A stretch of DNA of 24,819 nucleotides, from the IMG/VR virus record IMGVR_UViG_3300032242_000341, positions 1 through 24,819 of that record, one strand, 5' to 3'. This DNA comes from a virus. Each line of letters starts with the position of its first letter. Positions within the stretch are counted from its first letter, which is position 1. Position numbers and translations under genes: made by a program. Below the pieces are notes generated by a model. The model saw only the letters and a program-made list of their open reading frames with translations. It made no database searches and was not told where the DNA came from. Positions 3,605 through 19,590 of the stretch are shown piece after piece.

Positions 3605-4798
3605 ATGATAGATAAACAGCCATTTTTGGATCTAATTGATAAGTTAAAGACAGAAGGCAAGTATCGTGTGTTTAACGATATTTTAAGAGAGAACGGCAAG
3701 TTTCCATCTGCTATTTGGTATGGACCTTACAACATTAAAAACATTACCAATTGGTGCAGCAATGATTATCTTGGTATGGGTCAGCATAAAGTTGTACTTG
3801 ATGCTATGCATACTGCCCTAGACATGACAGGCGCAGGATCGGGCGGTACTCGCAACATTGCAGGCACTAGCCACTATCATGTGGCACTTGAACACGAGCT
3901 TGCAACATTACACAAGAAAGAACGATCACTATTGTTCAGCAGCGCCTATGTGGCCAACGAATGGTCGTTGATTGCTCTAGCTAAAATTATTCCAAACATA
4001 CACTATATCAGTGATAGTAAAAATCATAACAGCATGATTGTAGGCATGAGCCACAGCCGAGCTCGCAAGACTGTATTCAAACATAATGACATGCAGATGT
4101 TAGAAGAAATTTTACAAACAGTAGTTGCCGCAGGTGACACTCCGTGTATTGTATTCGAAAGTGTCTATAGCATGGACGGAGACGTTAGTTTATTAAAAGA
4201 GATATGTGATCTAGCAGACAAGTACAATGCTATGACCTATCTTGACGAAGTTCACGCAGTTGGATTATATGGCAAAACAGGTGCAGGAAAGTTAGAGTTA
4301 TATGGACTACAAGATCGGGTTGATATAGTCAACGGTACACTAGGTAAAGCGTTTGGAGTACAAGGCGGATACATTGCCGGCGATGCAATTGTTATTGATG
4401 CTATTCGCAGTATTGCAGCGGGTTTTATCTTTACAACATCAATGAGTCCTGTAACGTGCGCCGGCGCATTAGCAGCAGTAAAGTATCTAAAAGCCAATAG
4501 CGAACTGCGTGAGCAACATCAAGACCGTGCTCGTAAATTAAAATATCAATTAATTAAGGCAGGGCTACCTGTGATGGACAGTACTACACATATTGTTCCT
4601 GTACTAGTAGGTGATGCTAAACGTGCTAAGATGATGAGCGATAGATTACTTGACGAATTTAACATATACGTACAAAGTATAAATTACCCAACTGTTCCTA
4701 TTGGTACAGAACGATTGCGTTTTGCACCAACCCCTATGCATGATGATGGCATGATAGAAGATTTAATAGAAGCACTACAACAAGTGTTCAAGTCATAA
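3605..4798 (+). CDS. hemA: 5-aminolevulinate synthase (Shemin pathway)
   Basis: PLP enzyme joining glycine and succinyl-CoA to 5-aminolevulinate, the first step of tetrapyrrole (heme, bacteriochlorophyll, B12) synthesis in alphaproteobacteria. 397 aa, full family length. Visible: N-W-C-S-N-D-Y-L-G (49-57), [15 protein letters not shown] (78-92), [10 protein letters not shown] (214-223) with cofactor residues D214 and H217, and TLGKAFG with the PLP lysine K248, the same number as in the Rhodobacter enzyme. The substrate-specific TRNIAGT and YHVALE segments favour ALAS over its relatives KBL and BioF. It stands alone on the plus strand with its own late-type box and a terminator, a moron-like layout. 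Phage-borne ALAS has been described from aquatic metagenomes. No heme regulatory CP motif is visible. It likely boosts host tetrapyrrole flux during infection (inference). Confidence 0.95.
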
Positions 4799-4837: not shown

Positions 4838-5848
4838 TTACTCGTTGATTTGAGCAATACCCCATGTACCGCCCATACGCTCGTATGTAGTTGCAGCATA
4901 AACGTCAGCTTTTACGCTTTCGTTAAATTTAGTTGCAGCCACTCTACGTGCCCATGCCCATAGTTGATCATCTAATGGATCAATTTGTGCTGTACCGTTG
5001 CTTTCTTTAATAATTTGTAGTGCCTTGGCAAATGTTAGTGTGCCTTCAACGCCTTCTTTAACTGGACGCTTTTTGCCTTTTGGCATCATTGCGCTTTCAT
5101 CTTTCTTACCAAAGTATTTGGCCTGCTTGTCGCTCATGCCTTTCTTACCATCACCAGTCTTGCCAGCAGCTTTATCAGCAGCGGCTTTCTTCATTGGCTC
5201 TTTTGTATCGCCGTTGTTATTTAAATCTAAAAAGTCTGGCTTTGCGCCTTCTTTAACTGACTCGTCTTTCTTCTTATTTTTTGGCTTGTCTTCTGAACCG
5301 TCAGTAAATGTACTAGACTTTTTAGTGTAACGTGTTACGCCTGGTTCCATTTCTTTCTTGTCGAACTTGCCAGTAGTTTTTTCTTTTTCAGCACGAGCCT
5401 TGGCATCTGCTACAGTTGGGAAACTTTCTTTGACTTTCTTAGTTTTGATTTCTTCAACCATATCGTCCCAACCTTCTTCTAGGTCGCCTTCTAGGCTTTC
5501 TTCAACTTCTTCTTTCTTAACTTTCTTAGGAAGACCTTTATGCTTTGTTCCAGCAATTTTCTCTAACTCTGCTTTGCTCATTTTAGACATTTCAGCAGCG
5601 GCACCTTTGCCTTCTGGCTTCTTGCCTTCTTTCTTAGCGGCTAGTGCAATACCAGCGGCTTGTTGTTGTGCCTTGCTAGCAGCCTTTTCCATTAATGCAC
5701 TTTCTGCAAGAATAGTTGACTGACCAGCTAGTACACGTAGTTGTGCGCTTTCATCTAACTGTGCAGCTTTTGGTAATTCAGGAGCAGCAACACCTTTTAC
5801 AGGAGCTTCCATGCTGTCTAGTTTGTTTAATAGTGATTTGAAATCCAT
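4838..5848 (-). CDS. Lys/Glu/Ala-rich low-complexity phage protein
   Basis: 336 aa, function not recognised. The N-terminal 90 residues are Ala-rich and helical (A-Q-L-R-V-L-A-G-Q-S-T-I-L-A-E-S). The middle is a charged, probably disordered stretch with repeated K-E-G/E-S-V-K-E-G. A short DLNNNGD segment (about 206-212) resembles the D-x-N-x-N-G-D calcium loop and sits in the common phage phrase PDFLDLNNNGDTKEPMKKA. The last about 70 residues look folded (TFAKALQIIKES to the end). Several L-x-E tripeptides followed by small residues, and an EEGWDDM segment similar to one in the LysM-GH19 protein, suggest an internal head protein processed by the prohead protease; this is inference. AAGGAAA precedes the ATG, and a late-type box lies about 50 nt upstream. 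Confidence 0.8.
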   Translation of the reverse strand: MDFKSLLNKLDSMEAPVKGVAAPELPKAAQLDESAQLRVLAGQSTILAESALMEKAASKAQQQAAGIALAAKKEGKKPEGKGAAAEMSKMSKAELEKIAGTKHKGLPKKVKKEEVEESLEGDLEEGWDDMVEEIKTKKVKESFPTVADAKARAEKEKTTGKFDKKEMEPGVTRYTKKSSTFTDGSEDKPKNKKKDESVKEGAKPDFLDLNNNGDTKEPMKKAAADKAAGKTGDGKKGMSDKQAKYFGKKDESAMMPKGKKRPVKEGVEGTLTFAKALQIIKESNGTAQIDPLDDQLWAWARRVAATKFNESVKADVYAATTYERMGGTWGIAQINE

Positions 5849-5897: not shown

Positions 5898-5905
5898 TAT
5901 TTATC
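5898..5905 (-). promoter_or_regulatory. Late-type promoter box GATAAATA
   Basis: GATAAATA on the minus strand, overlapping the stop codon of the 79-aa ORF and about 49 nt before the start of the 336-aa ORF. It would let that gene be transcribed apart from the cluster upstream of it. Confidence 0.5.
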
Positions 5906-6140
5906 GTTTGATGGCATTACCGCCACCAAATATGTTTTCTTTACTGTCTAGAGCGTTATCTGTTGGTTTTTGCATCTTAACCTTGGGAGGTTTTGGTGCC
6001 TTAGTACCACTTTTACCGGGACTACCTGTATACGATTTTGTGGATTTTCCAATGGCAAGATGCGGGCTAACTACTACCCCTACATCGGCTGCTGTAGTTC
6101 CCGCAGAATCTGCATATTCAAATAACTCTTTAATTCTCAT
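5901..6140 (-). CDS. Small protein with capsid-targeting-like N-terminus
   Basis: 79 aa, unknown function. It starts M-R-I-K-E-L-F-E-Y, with L-F-E at 6-8 matching the (I/L)-x-E prohead-protease consensus. The rest is Gly/Ser/Pro/Lys-rich and probably unfolded (SYTGSPGKSGTKAPKPPK), ending in N-I-F-G-G-G-N-A-I-K-R. Small proteins of this kind are common in marine T4-like phages. No clear Shine-Dalgarno precedes the ATG; the upstream stop is only about 7 nt away, so re-initiation after the LysM-GH19 gene is likely. Confidence 0.75.
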   Translation of the reverse strand: MRIKELFEYADSAGTTAADVGVVVSPHLAIGKSTKSYTGSPGKSGTKAPKPPKVKMQKPTDNALDSKENIFGGGNAIKR

Positions 6141-6147
6141 ACTGTAT

Positions 6148-7338
6148 TTAGCGCATAGCTACAAGGACATTTTTATAGTCCTTGAAGTTATCTTGACGGT
6201 CTTCTAAACCTCGCATCCCGGGATTAATCTTTTTAGTAACTGCCGCAGTATCGTTAAAGTTGTTAACGTGTGGGGCAACTCTAGTTTTCCAATACCACAC
6301 TGCAATCTTTGCTGCCACAGTAGGAGTAGATGCTAGTTCGGGTTTTTCTTCTAAAGGTAATCCCAGTGCTTCTCCTGCCATGCGATAGTTGTCGCGTCCA
6401 GTAATCTGTATATATCCGCGACCTGCATAACGAGAGCCGTCTCCTGCATGTTTGTTGCCCAGTATCTTTGCTTTCTTAGGAGCAAACTTAGGATCATATT
6501 TTTTAAAATCTAATGATCCACCAATTTCTTTCATATGCGTGAAATCAGCTGTTTCGTGTTGGCATTGTGCCATGAACTGTGCAAGTTCAGTACCCATCAG
6601 TCCGGCCTTCATTGCTATATTTTTTAATGTAGATTCAGCTTCAGTGGGATCAATCTTTTTAACGGGTTCTTTAATTGCTGGCGCAGCGGTATGTTTTACA
6701 TCTTGTTTGTGTGATGCAGTTGTGGGTTTGGTATTATCCGGTACTTTTACTTTTTGGCCTGGTTCTAATTTAGTAGCGTTGTTAAACTTATTAAGTTGCA
6801 TAACAACTGTTGGATCAACTCCGTTTTGTCTAGCAATAGAATAAACAGTATCGCCAGGCTCTACAATTTGTTTTACAATGCTGGCATTTGCACCTAGAGC
6901 GGCAGCACCCATAGCAGCACCTGCTACCCAGTCTTTCCAACCCTCGTCAACACTATCAATATCTTGCTCTAAGTCTCTTACAATTAAATGTAGTAGTTCT
7001 TTACTAGCACCATCGCCCCATTTTAAACTTTTAATAATGGCATGTGCGCCTTCGCTGCCGACTTGCTGTACAATGTGCTGTAGTAACTGCTTAGTTACAT
7101 GTGGAACACCATCGGCATCACCTTCGGATTCGTTTGCAGACTTGTGTTTAGCACGACCTGCTTTCATGTTGGCCAGCCAATGTGCCATACGTGCTTTTTC
7201 ACCTGTTGAGTGTTTAGCGGTATTTCTTAAACTGCTAACACTGGCTTTGGTATTAACTCCGCTGCGTTTGGCTAGACCTTTGCGACCCGGATGTTTACCG
7301 TCGGCAAAATTCTCAGATGTAAATTCATGGAATCTCAT
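6148..7338 (-). CDS. LysM-GH19 peptidoglycan hydrolase with possible head-targeting N-terminus
   Basis: 396 aa. Residues 1-70 are basic and begin M-R-F-H-E-F-T-S-E, similar to the capsid-targeting-like starts of its neighbours. A module at 72-150 includes VDEGWKDWV and an Ala/Gly-rich hydrophobic run (139-151). A LysM domain (about 156-200: V-E-P-G-D-T-V-Y-S-I-A-R ... L-E-P-G-Q-K-V-K-V-P) binds peptidoglycan. The C-terminal 160 residues are a GH19 chitinase/lysozyme-like domain with QCQHETADF (catalytic E262) and RYAGRGYIQITGRDNY (303-318). I chose the ATG at 7338 because it forms an ATGA overlap with the gene upstream; the longer reading would need a GTG at 7365. It differs from the compact endolysin at 18961-19590 and may act at entry rather than lysis (inference). 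Confidence 0.9.
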   Translation of the reverse strand: MRFHEFTSENFADGKHPGRKGLAKRSGVNTKASVSSLRNTAKHSTGEKARMAHWLANMKAGRAKHKSANESEGDADGVPHVTKQLLQHIVQQVGSEGAHAIIKSLKWGDGASKELLHLIVRDLEQDIDSVDEGWKDWVAGAAMGAAALGANASIVKQIVEPGDTVYSIARQNGVDPTVVMQLNKFNNATKLEPGQKVKVPDNTKPTTASHKQDVKHTAAPAIKEPVKKIDPTEAESTLKNIAMKAGLMGTELAQFMAQCQHETADFTHMKEIGGSLDFKKYDPKFAPKKAKILGNKHAGDGSRYAGRGYIQITGRDNYRMAGEALGLPLEEKPELASTPTVAAKIAVWYWKTRVAPHVNNFNDTAAVTKKINPGMRGLEDRQDNFKDYKNVLVAMR

Positions 7339-7733
7339 TTTACTATAGGCCCGCCGGTGATCCACAACTCACAACTGCGACTTCCTGCGCATTTAAAATG
7401 TAGTAGATTGCAATAGCCTAAGTCCGCAGCTTCACGAGTTTTTTCTGCTTCAAATGCTTCTTCACCCATTCCGTCTTCCATGCACTTGTACATGGCATCG
7501 GTAATGTTAAATGCCGCACAGTTGGCACACCGCATGGTCTTAGCAGTCTCTTCGGTTATCTTCCATTGTTTAGCAGAAGCCTTCCAGTAATCGCCGGGCT
7601 TGTCGGGATTAGCAGGACCGTAATGATGCTTGTCTATTGCAGTCTGTCGATTCTTAACATTAATGTCTAAATCGTGTGTGGCAATAGGACATCCTTTATT
7701 GGCCGCTTCTAAGATATTGATATATTGTCTCAT
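7335..7733 (-). CDS. Cysteine-rich protein, HiPIP-like cysteine pattern
   Basis: 132 aa with seven cysteines (15, 69, 72, 84, 108, 115, 121). The arrangement R-C-A-N-C-A-A-F, then C84, then L-G-Y-C is like the four cluster ligands of high-potential iron-sulfur proteins (C-x2-C ... C ... G-[YW]-C). Three cysteines are extra. Cluster binding is inferred; a structural zinc site is the alternative. The N-terminus [10 protein letters not shown] has an I-L-E/A capsid-targeting-like site. The ATG at 7733 shares a base with the upstream stop (TGATG), so I prefer it to the GTG at 7745. An A-type Fe-S carrier is encoded two genes upstream. Confidence 0.75.
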   Translation of the reverse strand: MRQYINILEAANKGCPIATHDLDINVKNRQTAIDKHHYGPANPDKPGDYWKASAKQWKITEETAKTMRCANCAAFNITDAMYKCMEDGMGEEAFEAEKTREAADLGYCNLLHFKCAGSRSCELWITGGPIVK

Positions 7734-8674
7734 CAACAATGCCACTTTCTTAATGCTAGTGCCTTACGTGTTGGCTCACCGTTGGGCTTTTTCATTGGGC
7801 CTTTACTACCGCCCATTCTAGCACAAAAACTCTTACGACGTTTAGCTGCCTTACTACCTGGTTTTAATTTACTTGGTTTTGTTGTGACTGCTGTTTGTAA
7901 ATGACTGCCAGGGTGTTCTCTACGATAGCTAGCAACGCCTTTCTTGTTCAAACCACCATTCTTATTCTTGCCTGCCTTGCGATGCCAAGCAGCTGATTCT
8001 AGTAGTTCATGATCATCAACTGATTCAAAGTCTTCCCAGATGGTTTCTGCGTCAACACCGTGATGCTGTGCAAATGTTTCCACCATTTCTTCAATGATGT
8101 CAAACTGCTCGTCCGCTGTCAAAGCTAGGCCACTTAAATCCAAAATTCTGCTCAGTTCATCCAAGCCTTCCGCCACACCTTGCTTTCTAATGCTGAGTTT
8201 GTCAGCGGGATTGCCACTGCCAAACATACTATCTATTGCTTGTTGTGTTTTTTCTTTATTTTGTTGTTTCTGTTCTTTGCGATCAGCAGTGGCCTGTTTG
8301 CCAGTGCCTTTCTTGATAGTCTTCATCATAGTGTCAAACGGCTTGTCACCAGTGGTCTCTGACATGCTCTCGTTAGGCACACAGTTACGCACCTGGCCAC
8401 CATTCTTACCCTTCTTAGTACCTACAGCATGTTTGCCTGGCCAGCAACGAGTAAATCCGTTTGCATCTTTAGCACTTTTCTTAATCTCATTGAGATTGCC
8501 GTGTGATTCGCACATGCCACAATCTGGGCATGTCATTTCCATTTCAATGGATTCATTGTGTTTCTTTTTGCCGGCACAATGAGCTTTTTGTGAAAAGCCT
8601 TTAGGATGAGAACAGTTGATACTGCGCTTATACTTTTGGCTCCAGGCCTCGTTTATTATTTCTGTAATTTTCAT
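7733..8674 (-). CDS. Multi-module Cys/Lys-rich phage protein with DUF6321-like C-terminus
   Basis: 313 aa. The N-terminus [10 protein letters not shown] fits the capsid-targeting pattern. Residues 20-58 hold [13 protein letters not shown] and C-P-D-C-G-M-C, probable zinc-binding knots; 77-98 hold C-W-P-G-K-H ... R-N-C. A Lys/Gln-rich linker follows, then the GVAEG repeat (166-170), a small acidic helical module (171-225), and a basic C-terminal module of about 85 residues ([19 protein letters not shown] ... [12 protein letters not shown]) that I recognise as the DUF6321-type family of phages. Basic and Cys-rich make-up suggests nucleic-acid binding, but no function is established. Start codon overlaps the iscA stop (ATGA). 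Confidence 0.85.
8159..8191 (-). repeat. In-frame GVAEG repeat, copy A (33 bp)
   Basis: 31 of 33 bases are identical to copy B at 10164-10196; the core GCCTTCCGCCACACCTT (plus-strand reading) is identical in all three copies. Read on the minus strand it encodes [11 protein letters not shown], at the junction between the Lys/Gln-rich part and the acidic helical module of the 313-aa protein. Confidence 0.85.
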
Positions 8675-8997
8675 ACACTAAAGCTACTCCCACATCCACA
8701 TGTTGATTGAGCATTTGGATTTTTAATGATAAATTGACTGCCCATCAGCTCTTCTTTATAATCTATACTTGCCCCAGTCATGTACTGCATACTCATTGCA
8801 TCTACTACTATTTTATATTTATTGGACACTTCGATCTCAAAGTCGTCATCGTTAATTTCAGTATCAAGCATGAATCCATAACTAAACCCACTGCAACCTC
8901 CACCTTGAACAAAGGAACGTAAGACAGTATTAGGTTTATTCTCATCGATTAAAATATCAATGATTTTTTCTTTGGCTGCATCAGTTACTTCAATCAT
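8671..8997 (-). CDS. iscA: A-type iron-sulfur cluster carrier (IscA/ErpA-like)
   Basis: 108 aa, full family length. The three cluster cysteines are present: C35 in G-G-G-C-S-G-F and C100/C102 in S-T-C-G-C-G-S-S-F. The opening I[10 protein letters not shown] is typical. Such proteins pass Fe-S clusters from scaffold to client proteins in the cytoplasm; related genes occur in several aquatic T4-like phages. It has no capsid-targeting-like start, unlike its neighbours, but is coupled to both by ATGA overlaps, so it is made with them. A plausible client is the HiPIP-like protein two genes downstream (inference). It might alternatively top up host Fe-S capacity during infection. Confidence 0.93.
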
Positions 8998-9386
8998 ACT
9001 CCGTACCTGTTACGTTTAGTCTGTGCTACTGGGCTTGTTGTTTTTACTGTAGGTGATTCGTGACTGGCATTGTCTGTAATTCTAGTGGGTGTCACACCCA
9101 TTAGTTTAGATGCTAGTCTAATTGTTTCTTCATCTTCTGGAGCATACATAACCTGAGTTAAGTTTTCTGCCCATGATGATTCCTGACTGAATTTAATATG
9201 ACCTTTGTTATCGGCACGTGCCGCAGCAACGGCCATTCCATAGCGATATTGCATATATGGATCAGTGTTGCGTAATTGATGTTGTACAAACACGCCAGGC
9301 AATTCATCAGCTGTACTTTGCTCAACGGCAGATGCACGGCCATTGGCTTTGGCATGATACTCAACAATAAATTCGTTTGCTCTCAT
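8994..9386 (-). CDS. Paralogous phage protein (KRNRYGV tail), capsid-targeting-like start
   Basis: 130 aa, unknown function. It starts [10 protein letters not shown] (I-V-E at 7-9). It is a diverged copy of the 117-aa neighbour upstream: both have a P-x-M-D/Q-x-x-Y-x-[LY]-Y-R-[YF]-G block, an acidic Y-[AS]-x-x-x-E-[ED] block followed by an I-x-x-A helix, and both end P-x-A-x-x-K-R-N-[RK]-Y-G-V. The core is probably a small folded domain flanked by disordered ends. ATGA overlaps join it to both neighbours. Confidence 0.8.
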
Positions 9387-9736
9387 ACACCGTATTTGTT
9401 ACGTTTAGGTTTTGCTGTGGGACTTACTTTATAAGTTCCTTCAGGTTCTCCACTATCAGTAGCAGATACATGTTGACCTTTTATTTTATGATGCTTTTCT
9501 GTGGCCTTGATGATATCCTCCTCACCTTTAGAATATGCATAAATGATAGGAACATCACCAACACCGGTAGTAGGAGTTTTTGCATTTGGAGATGCCGCCA
9601 TTGAAATACCAAATCTATACAGTTCGTAATTGTTATCCATTTGTGGATAAAATGTAGCCTTGCTGAATACCGCTTTCTGATCTGGCGATATGGCCTGCAT
9701 GCCTGTTTGTTCTACAATAATGTCTTTAATCTTCAT
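9383..9736 (-). CDS. Paralogous phage protein (KRNKYGV tail), capsid-targeting-like start
   Basis: 117 aa, unknown function, tandem paralogue of the 130-aa gene downstream. It begins M-K-I-K-D-I-I-V-E-Q, the closest match in the window to the T4 internal-protein leader pattern. The core has Y-E-L-Y-R-F-G-I-S-M-A-A-S and D-V-P-I-I-Y-A-Y-S-K-G-E-E-D. The C-terminus is Lys/Pro-rich and ends K-R-N-K-Y-G-V. Start overlaps the upstream stop by ATGA. Confidence 0.8.
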   Translation of the reverse strand: MKIKDIIVEQTGMQAISPDQKAVFSKATFYPQMDNNYELYRFGISMAASPNAKTPTTGVGDVPIIYAYSKGEEDIIKATEKHHKIKGQHVSATDSGEPEGTYKVSPTAKPKRNKYGV

Positions 9737-10023
9737 GTTGGTTTTTCTCCGGTCAGGTATGGCTTACTGAACCATAACTTAAACCATTCAGGAGTTCCTG
9801 GTTTAATGTTATTCTTTTTCATCAGCTGACCTTTTTCATTGCCAGTTATACTGATGTTACTGCCTTTATCTACTGGCTTATATTCGTGCAGTTTTGCAGA
9901 CGAACCTAACCCCGCAAGATATTTAATCGTTTTAATTTCGTTGATGGGATCACTGGCATCAAGTACGCAGTCATCTGCGCTATCTTGATTTAAATTATCT
10001 GTAGTGATTTTATACTGTTTCAT
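9733..10023 (-). CDS. Small phage protein with conserved TPEWFKLWFS motif
   Basis: 96 aa, unknown function. The C-terminus K-P-G-T-P-E-W-F-K-L-W-F-S-K-P-Y-L-T-G-E is a phrase I associate with small proteins of aquatic T4-like phages. The ATG at 10023 shares its last base with the stop of the ParB-like gene (TAATG), typical of re-initiation, so the longer reading from 10116 inside that gene is rejected. The N-terminus M-K-Q-Y-K-I-T-T-D-N resembles the targeting pattern but lacks the key glutamate. Confidence 0.75.
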   Translation of the reverse strand: MKQYKITTDNLNQDSADDCVLDASDPINEIKTIKYLAGLGSSAKLHEYKPVDKGSNISITGNEKGQLMKKNNIKPGTPEWFKLWFSKPYLTGEKPT

Positions 10024-10943
10024 TAGTACCCCATTGGCTTTTTGCCGGCTTGTACATTCTTGTACCACTTGATTAATTCGGCATCGGTGGCCAGTTCTAA
10101 ATAGTTTGCTTCCCAATCTAGTTTCTTTACTAGGAATTGAATTAATTGTTGTCTTTTATTATGATCCAGGCCTTCCGCCACACCTTTCTTTCTAATTTCT
10201 TCTATGTCAGAATCCGGAACTATTTGAGCGGGTATAGATTTTACACCTAATAATTTATATGCCCAAAATCTATGATGTCCATCTAATACCTGATATCCGT
10301 TTTTATATTTTCGAACTAACAACGGAGGAAGTTTGTCTCCTTGCTTCAGTCCTGCTACTATTTTTTCAACATTGGCTTTGCTTTTTGGTTGATTCATCTT
10401 ATCGTCGGGCTCAAATCCCACAAGTTGATTAGCAGGTATGTTTACTACTGGACCTGTAGCTTTATAGTTCTCTAGACCAATGGCTCCGTAGTAGCTTGGA
10501 TCTGTGCTTAATGTAATCTTGCCTTCCGCCACACCTTCGTTTTTCTTACCGTATGGAAATACTTCTGGCCAGCTATTACCTTGTTTCTGTACAAACTTCT
10601 TAGGATCATACTTACTACGTATAATGCCGTGTACTCGTAATGCAGCCTCATGGCTATCTCTATAACCCTGTTGATGAGCAACACGTTCTTCATCATTGTG
10701 AATCATTCGTTGACCAAGTAATCCTGTTTCCGGATTAAATCTATACATAATGTTAGCTTCGTCGTTTTGGAAAGCCTCCATAGTAGCCATATCTTTCTTG
10801 TGCTTGACATCACCTTGCTTCTCAGCTTTCTTTTTATCCTTGTGTTGACCAGCACCGCCCATCTTGGCGTTCTTGGCAACAAAATTACGAGGCTTTGGTG
10901 GAACTGCTGCTCGTTCTTCTGATAATAGATCTTTAATTCTCAT
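10023..10943 (-). CDS. ParB/sulfiredoxin-fold protein with two in-frame GVAEG repeats
   Basis: 306 aa in three modules separated by GVAEG repeats. Module 1 (1-135) starts M-R-I-K-D-L-L-S-E-E (L-S-E at 7-9), has a basic F-V-A-K-N-A-K-M-G-G-A-G-Q-H-K-D stretch and a helical part. Module 2 (about 142-250) is ParB-like, with G-Y-Q-V-L-D-G-H-H-R-F-W-A-Y (217-229) and V-K-S-I-P-A-Q-I-V; this fold serves CTPases, nucleases and phosphatases, so the activity is open. Module 3 (259-306) is a small helical unit. GVAEG occurs at 137-141 and 254-258, exactly between modules. ATGA overlap with the upstream gene. A DNA-handling role after ejection is conceivable, but this is inference. Confidence 0.85.
   Translation of the reverse strand: MRIKDLLSEERAAVPPKPRNFVAKNAKMGGAGQHKDKKKAEKQGDVKHKKDMATMEAFQNDEANIMYRFNPETGLLGQRMIHNDEERVAHQQGYRDSHEAALRVHGIIRSKYDPKKFVQKQGNSWPEVFPYGKKNEGVAEGKITLSTDPSYYGAIGLENYKATGPVVNIPANQLVGFEPDDKMNQPKSKANVEKIVAGLKQGDKLPPLLVRKYKNGYQVLDGHHRFWAYKLLGVKSIPAQIVPDSDIEEIRKKGVAEGLDHNKRQQLIQFLVKKLDWEANYLELATDAELIKWYKNVQAGKKPMGY
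10164..10196 (-). repeat. In-frame GVAEG repeat, copy B (33 bp)
   Basis: Differs from copy A (8159-8191) at two bases. Encodes I-R-K-K-G-V-A-E-G-L-D between the ParB-like and C-terminal modules of the 306-aa protein. Confidence 0.85.
10521..10537 (-). repeat. In-frame GVAEG repeat, copy C (17-bp core)
   Basis: The 17-bp core is identical to copies A and B; the flanks have diverged. Encodes E-G-V-A-E-G-K between the N-terminal and ParB-like modules of the 306-aa protein. Confidence 0.8.
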
Positions 10944-11209
10944 AGTCTAAATGCTCTTAAATTCTTTTTAGGTGTGTTCTTATTCACATCTGCTGTTGTA
11001 TTCTGTTTGGTAATAATGCCCACGCCAGCTGCATCTTCTTTAGTTGGCTTTTCTTTTTCCTGTTTAGCTTTCCATTCTTTTTCAAATTCAGCCTTTGCTT
11101 GTGCAGCACGATCTCTAGAGGCAGTTGATTTTGCCTGCTCACGTTCAAAAGCACGTTGTAGTTTAACAGCAGCACTCATACGTGCCTCTACGATGTCTTT
11201 AATCTTCAT
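10940..11209 (-). CDS. Charged helical protein with capsid-targeting-like start
   Basis: 89 aa, unknown function. It begins M-K-I-K-D-I-V-E-A (I-V-E/A at 6-9). Residues 10-60 form one long charged helix, probably a coiled coil rich in Lys, Glu, Gln and Ala. The tail K-K-N-L-R-A-F-R-L is basic. Size and composition are like T4 internal proteins. Its start lies inside the upstream gene (11-nt overlap) and its stop overlaps the ParB-like start (ATGA). Confidence 0.78.
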   Translation of the reverse strand: MKIKDIVEARMSAAVKLQRAFEREQAKSTASRDRAAQAKAEFEKEWKAKQEKEKPTKEDAAGVGIITKQNTTADVNKNTPKKNLRAFRL

Positions 11210-11537
11210 AATGACCTTTCTGAATATGCTTACTTTGCTCGTCTGCCATTTTTCTAGCTAAAGAAAGGATCTGATCATGAGGAATCTTTTCTTCAACATC
11301 CTTGATATTAAACTTATCGGCATACATCTTTCTGCATTTCATAGCAGGAAGAATATATAATTTGTATGCGTTAGGATGTTTTGCGTTGTTCATATGCTTT
11401 CGTACAACGGGAAGAATCATATCACGAACGATACTGTCGTTATGATCCATAAAGAATTTCAAATCGCCGATCCAGTCGACGTCTGTATCCTTTTCAGTAG
11501 GCCCACCAATAGGGCTAAACATTTCTTTTAATCTCAT
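11199..11537 (-). CDS. Conserved phage protein, first gene of the coupled cluster
   Basis: 112 aa, unknown function. It begins M-R-L-K-E-M-F-S-P-I-G-G-P, similar to the targeting-like starts nearby but with S-P where they have x-E, so cleavage is less likely. The rest is a compact helical domain (D-V-D-W-I-G-D-L-K-F-F-M-D ... H-P-N-A-Y-K-L-Y-I-L-P ... E-Q-S-K-H-I). A late-type box lies 28 nt before the ATG, so this gene heads the transcript that runs to about 5901. Confidence 0.8.
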   Translation of the reverse strand: MRLKEMFSPIGGPTEKDTDVDWIGDLKFFMDHNDSIVRDMILPVVRKHMNNAKHPNAYKLYILPAMKCRKMYADKFNIKDVEEKIPHDQILSLARKMADEQSKHIQKGHYED

Positions 11538-11932: not shown

Positions 11933-12604
11933 TTATTTTTTCGCTATAACGTATTTATACGTTTGGCCCACTGCAGAACCGTCTCGTAGTTTAAGCATAA
12001 ACAGAGTTTTTTCGTCCTCTACAAGCATATACCTACGATCCCAGTTGTAGTAACAGGTTAGAAACCACTGTTTAACTGAGTCGCTTATTTTAATGCGATC
12101 ACCTTGCTCTTTAATCCATATAAGATAGTTAGCTCTTGTGATTCGATCACGAGGCATTGCATGCGGTGTTAGATATACTTTATATCTATACCGATCATGT
12201 GGCAGCTTATTTGCCACTACGGTATACGGACTGTCAAGTTGATCTATAGTTTCTTTGGTAGGTGCACTGGCATTCCTAATAATAGCACTAAATTGATTCA
12301 ACAACTTATTGTAAAACTCTTCATCATTAGTATATATGTCCATGATGTTAGTTTCAATCCGCTTGGACCAAGAATCTGCAGGATAACGGGCCAACATACT
12401 AGCAACTTTATAGATGTTAAGTCGATTGGCCCATGCTTTATCTTTAGTAGCATAGTGCGTTGGCTGTGGAGCAGGGTCTTGATTGCAAAATTCAATCACT
12501 GACATGATATCGGTATTTCTAAATATACCACTGCCCACGAGAGAAAGGCTGACTTTATACAGCCATTTCCCGTAGAACTTACGCTGCGTTTTCTGGATTT
12601 TCAA
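11933..12604 (-). CDS. Conserved phage protein, probably TTG start inside clpA
   Basis: About 223 aa, function unknown. The region K-F-Y-G-K-W-L-Y-K-V-S-L-S-L near the N-terminus looks like real folded sequence and comes before the first in-frame ATG (which would start at M-S-V-I-E-F). I therefore prefer the TTG at 12604, which has AGGAAGAG about 7 nt upstream, inside the 3' end of clpA; the two genes then overlap by 26 nt. Aromatic residues are frequent (W-S-K-R-I, Y-L-I-W-I-K-E-Q-G-D-R, W-F-L-T-C-Y-Y-N-W-D). No catalytic motif is evident. Probably co-transcribed with clpA. Confidence 0.75.
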   Translation of the reverse strand: MKIQKTQRKFYGKWLYKVSLSLVGSGIFRNTDIMSVIEFCNQDPAPQPTHYATKDKAWANRLNIYKVASMLARYPADSWSKRIETNIMDIYTNDEEFYNKLLNQFSAIIRNASAPTKETIDQLDSPYTVVANKLPHDRYRYKVYLTPHAMPRDRITRANYLIWIKEQGDRIKISDSVKQWFLTCYYNWDRRYMLVEDEKTLFMLKLRDGSAVGQTYKYVIAKK

Positions 12605-14930
12605 CTGTAGTCTCTTCCTGTTCAGCAGCGGCCTGTGCAAGCAATGCTCGATTAGCAGCTTTCATAGCCTTGCGTTGTTCTTTGGTTAACACCGGTGGCA
12701 TCTCGCTAATGGTAAATTCTAATTGATCGTTTACAATAGTAACATTGATACGACCGCCATCTTGTAGGTCACCAAATAGAATCTTACGACTTAACGGAGT
12801 CTTAAGTTTACTGTCAATGAGTCTAGCCAACGGACGAGCACCCATCTTACTGTCGAATCCGTGTGCTGCAAGCCAATCACGAGCAACATCATCGAGGATA
12901 ATCTCAATACGTTTGTCTTTAATCTGTACATTAAGTTCTTTAATAAACTTATCAACAATTAACTTAACACTGGCAACAGACAACTTGCTAAACTTGATAA
13001 TTGCATCTAAACGATTACGGAATTCCGGAGTAAAGAATTTTTTAATTGCTTTATCGTCTTCGCCTTCACGTTCTTGAGCACCAAAACCAATAACATTCTT
13101 TTCGCTATCACTAGCACCTAGATTACTAGTCATAACAAGAATGGTATTACGACCATCTGCTACTTTGCCATTAGAACCAGTAACAAATCCGTTATCCATA
13201 AACTGCAACAGAATATTGGTAACATCCGGATGTGCTTTTTCAATCTCGTCCAACAACAATACACAGTTAGGAGTTTCTTGCAGTTTAATAATCAACTGTC
13301 CGGCATTGTCTTCAAAACCAACATAGCCCGGAGGCGCACCGATCAGTTTTGCAACAGAGTGTTTCTCTTGATACTCACTCATATCAAAACGGATCATTGG
13401 CAAACCCATTTTATCTGCGAGCTGACGAGCAGTTTCAGTCTTGCCACAACCTGTTGGCCCAGAGAACAAAAATGCACCAATTGGCTTGTTAGGCGATTTC
13501 ATTCCTGCTTGTGCAACAAAGATCTTATCCAATACATTATCAACAGCAGAGTCTTGTCCAAACACTACTGCCTTCATGTTCTTTTCAAGATCAACAAGGT
13601 TCTTGCTTTCTTTCTGCGAAACTGTTTCAAGAGGCATATTAACCATCTTAGAAACTTCGTACATGACCTGTTCAATGTCTACGAAGTTTACAACACCGTC
13701 TTCGGGAGTATAGTCTTTAAGTTTGTAACGAGCACAGGCACAGTCAATAATGTCAATAGCCTTATCAGGTAACTTCTTTTCGGGCATGTACTTAACAGAC
13801 AATTTAACTGCCTGTTCGACAGCAACATCAGTAATCTTAACACCGTGATGTTCTTCGTAGTACTTACGAATGCCCTTGACAATCTTAATAGCCAACTCTG
13901 GAGTAGGCTCGTCAACAGTAATACGTTGGAATCGACGCATCAATGCACGATCTTTTTCAAAGTGCTTACGGTATTCTTCCCATGTAGTACTAGCAATAAC
14001 TTTCAATGTGCCTTTGCTCAATGCAGGCTTTAACATATTAGCCATATCGTTACTGCTACCATTAGCAGCACCAGCACCACTCATCATATGTGCTTCGTCA
14101 ATAAACAAGATGATCTTGCCTTTCTTTTCCAACGCACCTAACACTGCTTTAATACGTTCTTCAAAATCACCGCGATACTTACTGCCGGCAAGTAGTGCGC
14201 TGATGTCTAGTGTATAAACTTGATAGTCTTGAATAAACTTAGGTACTTTCTTTTCGAATACCTTACGTGCAAGACCTTCTGCAATGGCAGTTTTACCCAC
14301 ACCCGGATCTCCAACCATGAGCACATTGGCCTTGCTACGACGAGCAAGTACAAGTTGAATCTTTTCAATCTCTTCATCGCGGCCAATAACCGGATCAATC
14401 TTTTTCTCTTTGGCCAATGCACTTAAATTAGTACAGAATTGGTTAAGGATTTTTTCAACTTGGGAATTATTCACAGGCACTGCATCTTCCGAGATTTCAA
14501 CTTTTTCTTGATAGAATTCGATAAACTTATCTTTGTTAACGCCTGCTTTTAATAAGTAAAACGTGGCAAACGATCGTTTTTCTGAAAGGACACTGACAAT
14601 GATATCAGCAACTTCGATCTGATTACGACCGCTAAACAAAACTTGTGTAAAGCTGCGGTTAAGCACACGTTCAACACTGTTTGTTTTCTTTGGACGAGCA
14701 TCAGCAGGAAGATTGCTAATGTCGTTAAGTTGATTCTTTAAAAAATGATCTAAATTAGATTTAATGTAATTTGCATCAGCGCCGTAGTCAGTTAACAATT
14801 GAAAACATTCAGATTCCAATGTAATTGAATAAACGATATGCTCTAATGTTACATATTCGTGGTTAAGTTTCTTAGCAACATTTACTGCGCGATCAAAAAC
14901 TTTTTGCAATTTTGGGCTTGGTTCAAGCAT
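12579..14930 (-). CDS. clpA: ClpA-type AAA+ unfoldase
   Basis: 783 aa, full-length ClpA (E. coli 758 aa). N-domain at 1-145; D1 with GDPGVGKT (207-214), pore loop KYRGDFE (251-257) and LFIDEAH (275-281); D2 with GPTGCGKT (491-498), pore loop GAPPGYVGF and LLLDEIEKA. The N-V-I-G-F-G loop (612-617) carries the I-G-F tripeptide by which ClpA/ClpX dock onto ClpP, so the protein should be able to use host ClpP, none being encoded here. There is no ClpB-type middle coiled coil, which supports ClpA over a disaggregase. A poorly conserved Ala/Glu-rich tail of about 40 residues is added. It has a perfect-consensus sigma70 promoter. Possible roles: redirecting host proteolysis or removing defence proteins (inference). 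Confidence 0.95.
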   Translation of the reverse strand: MLEPSPKLQKVFDRAVNVAKKLNHEYVTLEHIVYSITLESECFQLLTDYGADANYIKSNLDHFLKNQLNDISNLPADARPKKTNSVERVLNRSFTQVLFSGRNQIEVADIIVSVLSEKRSFATFYLLKAGVNKDKFIEFYQEKVEISEDAVPVNNSQVEKILNQFCTNLSALAKEKKIDPVIGRDEEIEKIQLVLARRSKANVLMVGDPGVGKTAIAEGLARKVFEKKVPKFIQDYQVYTLDISALLAGSKYRGDFEERIKAVLGALEKKGKIILFIDEAHMMSGAGAANGSSNDMANMLKPALSKGTLKVIASTTWEEYRKHFEKDRALMRRFQRITVDEPTPELAIKIVKGIRKYYEEHHGVKITDVAVEQAVKLSVKYMPEKKLPDKAIDIIDCACARYKLKDYTPEDGVVNFVDIEQVMYEVSKMVNMPLETVSQKESKNLVDLEKNMKAVVFGQDSAVDNVLDKIFVAQAGMKSPNKPIGAFLFSGPTGCGKTETARQLADKMGLPMIRFDMSEYQEKHSVAKLIGAPPGYVGFEDNAGQLIIKLQETPNCVLLLDEIEKAHPDVTNILLQFMDNGFVTGSNGKVADGRNTILVMTSNLGASDSEKNVIGFGAQEREGEDDKAIKKFFTPEFRNRLDAIIKFSKLSVASVKLIVDKFIKELNVQIKDKRIEIILDDVARDWLAAHGFDSKMGARPLARLIDSKLKTPLSRKILFGDLQDGGRINVTIVNDQLEFTISEMPPVLTKEQRKAMKAANRALLAQAAAEQEETTVENPENAA

Positions 14931-14990: not shown

Positions 14991-15827
14991 TTAAATGCCG
15001 TGTTTTAGTTCAATGATTTTTTGTTTTTGTGCGTCTGTTAAGTTCTTAGGTATTTGTATTTTTAATTTCACATACAAATTTCCACGCTGACCGCTATGAA
15101 TATTTTTCATACCTTCGTTCTTACACATCAATAATGTCTCGGGTTGACTGCCTTGCGGTATTGACACGCTTAATTGTCTGCCGTCTAATGTCTGAAAGGT
15201 TATGTCCATACCAAGCATGGCATCCCATACATCGACTTGTTTTTCGAGAATTAAATTATCATTTTCTCTTTTAAACACTGCATGTTGGCGAACGTGAATG
15301 ATAATAATTAAATCGCCAGGTGGTATTCCTGGAATACTGTCTTCTCCCATACCTTGGTATCGAATCTGAGAGTTGTTATCGACCCCTGCAGGGATATCAA
15401 CATTGATCAGCTTCTTTCTACCATTAGACATTTGAATTTCGGCATCTAATGTTTTTCCTAAAAATGCTTCTTCTAAAGAAATATCTAAGTTAATTGACAC
15501 AGTGGCATTTTGCTGACGTTGTTGTCTAAACCCAAATGGGTTACCGCCAAACCCACCGCCACCGAACATATTGCCAAACACATCATTGAATGGATTGTTT
15601 CCTGTATGAAAATGGAATTGATGCCCACCTGGATTTTGTTGACTAAAGTCATATTCCTGACGTTTTTGATCATCGCTTAGAGTAGCGTATGCTTCTTGTA
15701 TTTTTTGGAATTGTGCAGAGTCACCACCACGATCGGGATGGTGCTTCATAGCCAGGCCGCGATAGGCCTTTTTAATTTCTTCGGCATTTGCGCCTTTGTT
15801 TAAACCTAGTGTTGAATAGTAGTCCAT
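14991..15827 (-). CDS. dnaJ: DnaJ-type co-chaperone (class II, CbpA-like)
   Basis: 278 aa. J domain at 1-65 with the HPD tripeptide (H-H-P-D-R-G-G) that triggers Hsp70 ATPase, a Gly/Phe-rich linker (about 70-105) and two beta-barrel substrate domains (V-S-I-N-L-D-I-S-L-E-E-A-F onward). The four CxxCxGxG zinc motifs are missing, so it is a CbpA/DnaJB-like class II protein. I chose the ATG at 15827 (M-D-Y-Y-S-T-L-G-L) because it matches the family start; the longer reading would begin at a TTG inside a terminator stem-loop. No phage DnaK is in the window, so it presumably recruits host DnaK. Predicted mRNA has almost no leader (see promoter). Confidence 0.93.
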   Translation of the reverse strand: MDYYSTLGLNKGANAEEIKKAYRGLAMKHHPDRGGDSAQFQKIQEAYATLSDDQKRQEYDFSQQNPGGHQFHFHTGNNPFNDVFGNMFGGGGFGGNPFGFRQQRQQNATVSINLDISLEEAFLGKTLDAEIQMSNGRKKLINVDIPAGVDNNSQIRYQGMGEDSIPGIPPGDLIIIIHVRQHAVFKRENDNLILEKQVDVWDAMLGMDITFQTLDGRQLSVSIPQGSQPETLLMCKNEGMKNIHSGQRGNLYVKLKIQIPKNLTDAQKQKIIELKHGI

Positions 15828-15833
15828 AGTCTC

Positions 15834-16140: not shown

Positions 16141-16698
16141 TTAAATTTCTGGTTGTGGTGGTTGCACTGGCGCAGGTTTGCCGCCAAACCCTGCTACTGG
16201 TGTTGAACCAAACGTTTGTGTTACTGTTGTTGAGACTGGTGCGCCAAACGCTGGTGCTGGAGGTGTGCTTCCAAACCCGCCTCCGCCAAAGCCACTTGGT
16301 GCTGGTGCTGGTGAATTAAAACCACCGGAGGAACCGAAGCCTCCTGTTGAAGGTGCGCCAAATGCTGGTGTCCCGCTCGCAAATCCTGTTGTTGGTGCTG
16401 TTGTTTGTAGTCCGCCATTATTTGCTCCGCCTAATTTTTCTTGTGTACGACCAAATGCCGCAATACCTAAAACCGCACCCATTGCAATGTGGAATAAACC
16501 AGCACCTTGCAATGTTAATGGATTCCATTGTGTAATTTGTGTATGGGTAAATGTCTGTAATAGACTCCATAAAATTGGAAATACAACCATGTCCATGGTA
16601 CAGACCAGCATGTACATCCAGCCCATCATTGGACGCCATTTACTGTTCATCCAATCTTCTTTTTTCTGTTCGCTTGCGCTTTTAACTTCGTCTGCCAT
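16141..16698 (-). CDS. Holin-like membrane protein with FG-rich tail
   Basis: 185 aa. Residues 1-85 hold W-R-P-M-M-G-W-M-Y-M-L and two transmembrane segments (about 26-48 and 64-82), resembling the holin families of GTA and pelagic phages (W-R-P at the start of the first helix, then L-x-G-A-G-L-F-H-I-A-M-G). Residues 88-185 are a low-complexity Gly/Phe/Pro/Ala tail with repeated F-G (G-F-G-S, A-F-G-A, G-F-G-G), unusual for a holin and probably disordered. A late-type box lies 26 nt before the start and GGAGCG serves as Shine-Dalgarno. It is close to the endolysin and spanin genes. Holin function is a fair inference, not proven. Confidence 0.75.
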   Translation of the reverse strand: MADEVKSASEQKKEDWMNSKWRPMMGWMYMLVCTMDMVVFPILWSLLQTFTHTQITQWNPLTLQGAGLFHIAMGAVLGIAAFGRTQEKLGGANNGGLQTTAPTTGFASGTPAFGAPSTGGFGSSGGFNSPAPAPSGFGGGGFGSTPPAPAFGAPVSTTVTQTFGSTPVAGFGGKPAPVQPPQPEI

Positions 16699-18960: not shown

Positions 18961-19590
18961 TCAAGCGCCAAAGATATGTAATGCGTGATTATAGTGGTTA
19001 GTACGATCTTCAAGACCAATAGTTCCACCATTGATGCGTTTAGTCATTGTTAGAATATCGCCTTTGTCTGCAAATTGGTTTAGATTATTTGTTTCCCAAA
19101 ACCAGCAAGCTGATTGCACAGCACCTTCAAATGTTGCTAGATATTCAGGAACATCTTCGACATCCATTTCTAAACTGCCAGCAAAGAAACTGTAGTTTTG
19201 TTTACCAGTCAATTGAATAAGACCACGACCGCAGAACTTAAATCCATCGCCTGATTCTTCTGGACCATTGCCCATGCGGTTAGCATAGACTCTGTTGGCA
19301 ATCATTTCTTGTTGACCTGCATAATGTGCAGCAATAGTGTCATCTGGAAAATACTTAGGAAACACACGGCGCAGACTTGCTGCCTTGTAGTTTAAGTTTT
19401 CTTTTAGAGCAGTAAATCCGCCCGACTCGTGAGCGCACTGTGCTAGAAAACTAGCCACACGTTGCGGAGTATTGATTTCATACTCTGGAAGAATTTCATT
19501 TAGTGCATGGAACCAATGGTCAATGTAGGGATTCTTAGGAATCATTTGCGCCAATTGGTCGCGTGTAAAATTGAATGTAAAATCTGCCAT
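18961..19590 (-). CDS. GH19-type endolysin
   Basis: 209 aa, a single compact glycoside hydrolase family 19 domain that cuts peptidoglycan glycan strands. Visible: F-L-A-Q-C-A-H-E-S-G-G-F (catalytic E55), L-K-E-N-L-N-Y with the second acidic residue (E64), F-C-G-R-G-L-I-Q-L-T-G-K-Q-N-Y, and the C-terminal T-K-R-I-N-G-G-T-I-G-L-E-D-R. No signal peptide, so release through a holin is expected. TGGAGA precedes the ATG. It is followed at once by Rz- and Rz1-like genes. It is about half the size of the LysM-GH19 protein at 6148-7338 and is the likely lysis enzyme. Confidence 0.93.
   Translation of the reverse strand: MADFTFNFTRDQLAQMIPKNPYIDHWFHALNEILPEYEINTPQRVASFLAQCAHESGGFTALKENLNYKAASLRRVFPKYFPDDTIAAHYAGQQEMIANRVYANRMGNGPEESGDGFKFCGRGLIQLTGKQNYSFFAGSLEMDVEDVPEYLATFEGAVQSACWFWETNNLNQFADKGDILTMTKRINGGTIGLEDRTNHYNHALHIFGA

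Follow-up and report, generated by a model that had tools for sequence, protein, structure and literature searches.

The head of phage T4 receives its internal proteins by means of a short N-terminal capsid-targeting sequence (CTS), and studies of CTS mutants have assigned targeting to residues 4 and 7 and processing to residues 8 and 10, gp21 cutting at the site [LI]-x-E (PMC9026906). According to the same review, T4-like phages may use capsid targeting to take in various proteins. Here we describe a comparable N-terminal leader in positions 1 to 24,819 of the IMG/VR virus record IMGVR_UViG_3300032242_000341 (the whole stretch analyzed, hereafter the window), a 24.8-kb fragment of a freshwater T4-superfamily phage with a DNA polymerase gene (112-2781) and clamp-loader-like and PhoH-like genes. 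The leader recurs in a run of minus-strand genes (5901-11537) and very probably sends the proteins that carry it into the virus head, where it is then cut off.

The initial annotation had quoted ten N-termini from this run, seven fitting a common leader and three imperfect, and proposed that they head unrelated protein bodies. All ten were found exactly, all on the minus strand. Written as M[KR]x2-3[FILVM]2x0-1E, the leader is present in seven of the 11 genes of the run and in none of the other genes in the window (about 24; Fisher p = 5e-5), which bears out the division into seven fitting and three imperfect leaders. The bodies are mostly unrelated as claimed, except that two of the tagged proteins (8994-9386 and 9383-9736) are distant paralogues (24% identity, E = 8e-6).

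The search of related phages for the same leader on unrelated proteins, which had been suggested together with the claim, was positive. In a sample of 80 IMG/VR loci that encode a DUF6321 relative, with genes predicted by a simple gene caller, the motif is found at 164 of 1225 N-termini (13.4%) against nine of 5809 interior ATGs (0.15%), and Glu is the most frequent residue at its last position. A degenerate DNA pattern for MRAxEFIxE retrieved at least 120 IMG/VR stretches, compared to 10 in the whole collection for a pattern of the same composition in which EF was inverted to FE. Over all fetched loci there are 428 leader-bearing proteins in about 160 body clusters, defined at 60% mutual coverage since single-linkage clustering without a coverage limit fused 315 tagged proteins via shared segments. 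With each cluster represented once, the consensus reads M[RK][AI]x[ED][FI][IL]xE, to be compared with MKTYQEFI[AT]E in T4, the core EFIxE being common to both; position 5 is Glu in 83% of 125 body-cluster representatives, an acidic residue there having lain outside the search pattern. Position 9 is Glu in all 41 homologues retrieved with the 9383-9736 protein, whose MKIKDIIV was itself one of the six search peptides, and, the members of our alignments A1 and A2 having been selected in a biased way, its invariance there is not used as evidence. Among the tagged bodies of relatives are cytidylyltransferases, ADP-ribosyltransferases, zeta-toxin kinases, superoxide dismutase, GH19/LysM proteins, M48 peptidases and ParB_N proteins.

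The end of the leader coincides with a gp21-type site. A close relative (G020, 269.7 kb, with a DNA polymerase 82% identical) has the same gene cluster together with a complete portal-core-gp21-gp22-gp23 block, and gp21 is present on the contigs of relatives that hold the portal-gp21-gp23 block, G020 included. The gp23 junction of G020 reads KYLSE/SATAGATSAGN (the slash marks the cut) and the junctions of eight relatives, G020 included, fit ENTRK[YH]L-x-E/[SAN]A[ST]xGxT, so that the agreement between the gp23 cleavage consensus and the leader end, which the initial annotation had put forward as a check, is indeed found in relatives. Moreover, a small tagged family, to which the first protein of the run (5901-6140) belongs, repeats the gp23 junction straight after the leader. 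Its member in locus L090 (2989-3246), 58% identical to the window protein, starts MKIKDILE followed by SATAGATSSGNIATVVSPH (also given as SATAGATSSGNIATV), and this arm aligns to the gp23 of G020 with a score of 66 (at most 52 in 2000 shuffles); in the window copy this arm has diverged, and its score of 36 is not significant. The same build appears in T4 itself, where a similar leader pattern applied to 268 open reading frames (ORFs) gave ipII, ipIII and gp61.1 plus three probable false matches. The gp61.1 protein starts MKTFKEFIKE and goes on with VAGDSGGNPENISIGTTSGAVVNKGP, and the alignment of this stretch to the mature gp23 arm IGGDHGYNATNIAAGQTSGAVTQIGP scores 69 (at most 50 in 2000 shuffles). 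Because the gp23 arm directly follows the leader both in the small family and in gp61.1, the leader Glu is probably marked as the cleavage point. Cyanophages show a similar agreement, their gp23 junctions being LLTE/A (S-CREM2) and ILTE/T (S-SM1) and their leaders ending in FLTE/A and FLNE/A.

Two side observations concern this module. T4 gp61.1 (NC_000866, 18966-19130; L456) is annotated as hypothetical, and its capsid-targeting-like leader and body resembling the mature gp23 N-arm suggest a head protein. In other loci (L111, L117, L127, L131, and L153) the gp23-arm module also follows a Glu directly within longer proteins or at their end, an arrangement that looks as if the cargo were made of polyproteins with internal cleavage sites.

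We regard it as highly likely that the shared N-terminus is a capsid-targeting propeptide, involving enclosure in the prohead, a gp21-type cut after the Glu, and delivery with the DNA to the next host. During head assembly the leader would bind a gp22-type core, so enclosing the tagged protein in the prohead; a gp21-type protease would then cut after the Glu of [IL]-x-E, freeing the body within the maturing head. The freed proteins would stay with the packaged DNA, enter the next host alongside it, and act there ahead of phage gene expression. To judge from the domains, their roles may differ from phage to phage, among them wall hydrolysis, DNA binding, ADP-ribosylation, and the work of nicotinamide adenine dinucleotide (NAD) and nucleotide enzymes. 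Some of the cargo is likely to have anti-defence roles, since Ip1-3 of T4 are inhibitors of GmrSD restriction enzymes (PMC12373910). The T4-type capsid targeting proposed by the initial annotation is supported by the gp23 site, by gp21 accompanying the head genes, by the virion proteins of cyanophages and by homologues without leader.

These homologues act as controls for the tag. The window encodes two GH19 proteins (33% identity, E = 9e-25), one with LysM and an imperfect leader within the run (6148-7338) and a leaderless one (18961-19590, minus strand) on the same strand and in the same region as a holin-like gene (16141-16698); the latter is probably the lysis endolysin and serves as an internal control. 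Likewise, the DUF6321 homologue of the T4-like phage P-SSM7 starts MKTYSQFIEE, whereas those of T7-like phages are leaderless and their genes lie between the scaffold and capsid genes. Leaderless homologues hence sit where a head tag is not expected, which supports reading the leader as a tag. A third family, that of the cysteine-rich protein at 7335-7733, carries either 9-residue leaders or the T4-like 10-residue MKTFKELLSE, followed by Ala in nearly all the homologues printed, in what looks like an exchange of equivalent leaders.

It could also be that the leader does target the prohead core, with a cargo that serves head assembly or DNA condensation and stays in the shell or is degraded, never being delivered to a host. 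In favor of this, the small tagged family imitates the N-arm of gp23, and the DUF6321 gene position between scaffold and capsid genes, seen in Pelagibacter and cyanobacterial T7-like phages (L396, L397, L453, and L455), suggests a head role. However, it is not evident what structural role tagged cytidylyltransferase, S-adenosylmethionine (SAM) hydrolase, ADP-ribosyltransferases, and wall hydrolases would play, and in T4 the internal proteins bearing the tag are injected and inhibit restriction enzymes (PMC12373910). We therefore consider a purely assembly-related cargo unlikely.

An independent test of virion location comes from published mass spectrometry of cyanophages. For S-CREM2, 52 virion proteins were detected (PMC10665884), and our test set of 210 ORFs holds 50 of them, leaving 160 undetected. 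The DNA pattern MKx[FY]xxF[IL]xE, which had been fixed ahead of reading the S-CREM2 genome, matches just two places there, in the genes of the cytidylyltransferase and the SAM hydrolase, and each of these is a virion protein. A slightly wider protein pattern, drawn up once the list was known, picks five ORFs (the SAM hydrolase, a kinase, the cytidylyltransferase, and two of unknown kind), all five in the virion and none among the 160 undetected (p = 6.5e-4). An earlier generic pattern gave six out of six in the virion (p = 1.4e-4), with ORF17 and ORF204 not resembling true leaders. S-SM1 has a single match to MKx[FY]xxF[IL]xE, in its T4-GC190-type cytidylyltransferase gene, and T4-GC190 is among the proteins found in the virion of this phage (PMC3037559). 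Separately, a virion-detected Cas9-like protein of S-CREM2 (L460, 7704-10313) has a leader-like RFASFMAE/A at residues 18-25, behind an N-terminal extension. The S-CREM2 enrichment also bears on the idea that the leader has nothing to do with virions and is a localization or interaction signal in the infected cell, such as an amphipathic helix directed at the membrane or the replisome: short amphipathic N-termini are able to work in this way, but this enrichment, the conserved Glu at [IL]-x-E, and the identical junction in gp23 make such a signal very improbable.

At the DNA level, every synonymous codon occurs at the E, F, and I positions of the leader (n = 238), and selection therefore acts on the peptide. 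That the likeness is a nucleic-acid feature near start codons (a translation or recombination module) is hardly credible, for although most genes of the run share a few bases with the next or almost touch it, thus having a common start context, and the Arg2 codon is mostly AGA, synonymous codons vary freely at E5, F6, I7, and E9 and one body, the 7335-7733 family, bears leaders differing in both length and sequence.

Several facts weigh against capsid targeting and delivery in the window phage. Three of the ten N-termini are imperfect (MRFHEFTSE, MKQYKITTD, and MRLKEMFSP), and these proteins may be untagged or have degenerate leaders. No gp21 was found in the 24.8-kb window, the gp21, gp22, and gp23 genes of this phage lying outside the fragment. 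Several large leader-bearing contigs (G003, G004, and others) gave no gp21 either; these are probably fragments, and they are not counted against the model because gp23 and portal are missing too. RaK2-like phages have gp21, and the RaK2 gp23 junction is identical in type, yet leaders are almost absent from them, so the type of head alone does not predict the tag. The T4-superfamily jumbo phages RaK2 and CBB, both with published virion mass spectrometry, were for the same scarcity of leaders unsuitable as a test of the rule. The mass spectrometry data come from cyanophages with a 10-residue leader and not from the lineage of the window phage, and T4-GC190 is encoded by S-PM2 yet named among the proteins undetected in its virion (PMC3037559). 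Finally, the S-CREM2 authors left open whether such enzymes are packaged or contaminants (PMC10665884); judging by the sequence of the leader, it argues for their being packaged.

Following the run from its low-coordinate end, all on the minus strand, the first gene (5901-6140) encodes a 79-residue protein with the leader MRIKELFE, a member of the small family in which others have the gp23-arm copy after the leader. The next (6148-7338) is the 396-residue LysM and GH19 protein with the imperfect MRFHEFTSE, and Pfam (GH19 5e-12, LysM 2e-11) confirms its original assignment as a peptidoglycan hydrolase. The 132-residue cysteine-rich protein (7335-7733, leader MRQYINILE) had been called HiPIP-like, a call that finds no backing in either Pfam (no family at E up to 0.1) or PDB sequences (no match at E up to 1); its body is mostly 80-89% identical over 62 contigs (L478-L539), a conservation far above that of its neighbors. 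Then come a 313-residue protein with a C-terminal DUF6321 (7733-8674, leader MKITEIINE; PF19846, 2e-21) and a 108-residue A-type iron-sulphur carrier of the HesB/IscA type (8671-8997; PF01521, 3e-19), which has no leader and yet stands within the tagged run in both the window and G020, where its homologue (85384-85710; L229) is leaderless as well. The two paralogues that follow have 130 residues (8994-9386, leader MRANEFIVE, from a family with 135 leader-bearing members) and 117 residues (9383-9736, leader MKIKDIIVE). For this dominant family of 117-130 residues an AlphaFold2 model (pLDDT 73, pTM 0.51) gave no significant PDB match, and no similarity to the DNA of 8994-9736 was found among phage isolates.

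Beyond them, a 96-residue protein (9733-10023) has a degenerate and doubtful leader, MKQYKITTD, its G020 homologue (85178-85396) starting MELSDLKRL. The 306-residue protein at 10023-10943 (leader MRIKDLLSE) has a ParB_N domain (PF02195, 1.5e-6), in agreement with its earlier description as ParB-like. It is followed by an 89-residue protein (10940-11209, leader MKIKDIVE) without PHROG match and by a 112-residue one (11199-11537) with the imperfect MRLKEMFSP, whose G020 homologue (82680-83027) starts MRLFELFGPEP. The pentapeptide GVAEG, present in the 7733-8674 and 10023-10943 proteins, was counted 50 times in 4538 ORFs of relatives, in proteins that otherwise have nothing in common; as an additional cleavage site it was discarded, its excess in tagged proteins being weak (0.099 vs 0.041 per 1000 residues). 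Adjoining the run, a 336-residue protein (4838-5848, minus strand; PF11450, 3.5e-13) has the N-terminus MDFKSLLNKLDSMEA, its G020 orthologue starting MDFKSILSKLDNLSA and the RaK2 virion protein ORF051 similarly with MFDYRKLMEALDAIE; it is possibly a head-related neighbor with an N-terminus of another type. On the other side of the run are ClpA-like ATPase (12579-14930) and DnaJ-like (14991-15830) genes, the former found in RaK2 too. A pyridoxal-phosphate (PLP)-dependent synthase-like gene (3605-4798, plus strand) lies amid the phage genes on the strand opposite to the run and is a candidate 5-aminolevulinate synthase.

The principle of a capsid-targeting tag is already known, and the T4 review (PMC9026906) was the only one among the open-access papers searched that mentions capsid targeting together with cyanophages. 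Within the open-access literature, there appears to be no description of the shorter leader on roughly 160 body clusters of freshwater and jumbo phages, of its connection with the enzymes in cyanophage virions, or of the gp61.1 build. We think it moderately likely that one short N-terminal tag serves aquatic T4-superfamily phages, the jumbo phages among them, as a general code for protein delivery, so that any gene gaining it becomes head cargo and the "contaminant" enzymes of cyanophage virions are specifically packaged. If this is true, sequence alone could identify as injected effectors hundreds of unannotated phage proteins, among them NAD and nucleotide enzymes, ADP-ribosyltransferases, kinases, redox proteins, and wall hydrolases. 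It would provide a rule to predict head-carried, injected proteins, something hitherto settled phage by phage by mass spectrometry, and a possible explanation for the metabolic enzymes in cyanophage virions, besides flagging proteins of abundant freshwater and marine phages as candidates for early host takeover or anti-defence.

The closest known systems are the T4 internal proteins IPI, IPII, and IPIII, with their CTS cut by gp21. They share with the aquatic proteins a short leader with a Phe/Ile core and a final Glu on unrelated bodies, and the gp21 site [IL]-x-E, gp21 being encoded by T4-superfamily relatives. The aquatic leader is, however, usually one residue shorter (MRAxEFIxE vs MKTYQEFIAE), and while the T4 internal proteins are few and small, the aquatic tagged bodies form about 160 clusters that include recognizable enzymes, and their genes often follow one another within an operon. 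Alt of T4 is also a head-packaged ADP-ribosyltransferase cut by gp21 (PMC9026906), and ADP-ribosyltransferase domains occur among the tagged proteins of relatives, but the Alt propeptide has another sequence and no Alt homologue was seen in the window. The cytidylyltransferase (T4-GC190), SAM hydrolase, and kinase of cyanophage virions have similar leaders (MKNFSSFLTE, MKDFDSFLEE, and MKRFDAFLTE), differing in their 10 residues, and the leader goes unremarked in the accessible parts of the reports that found these enzymes. Lastly, the ejection proteins of phiKZ and SPN3US are likewise cut after Glu by a relative of gp21 and ejected with the DNA (PMC9026906), although they are other proteins with another motif ([SA]-x-E in phiKZ).

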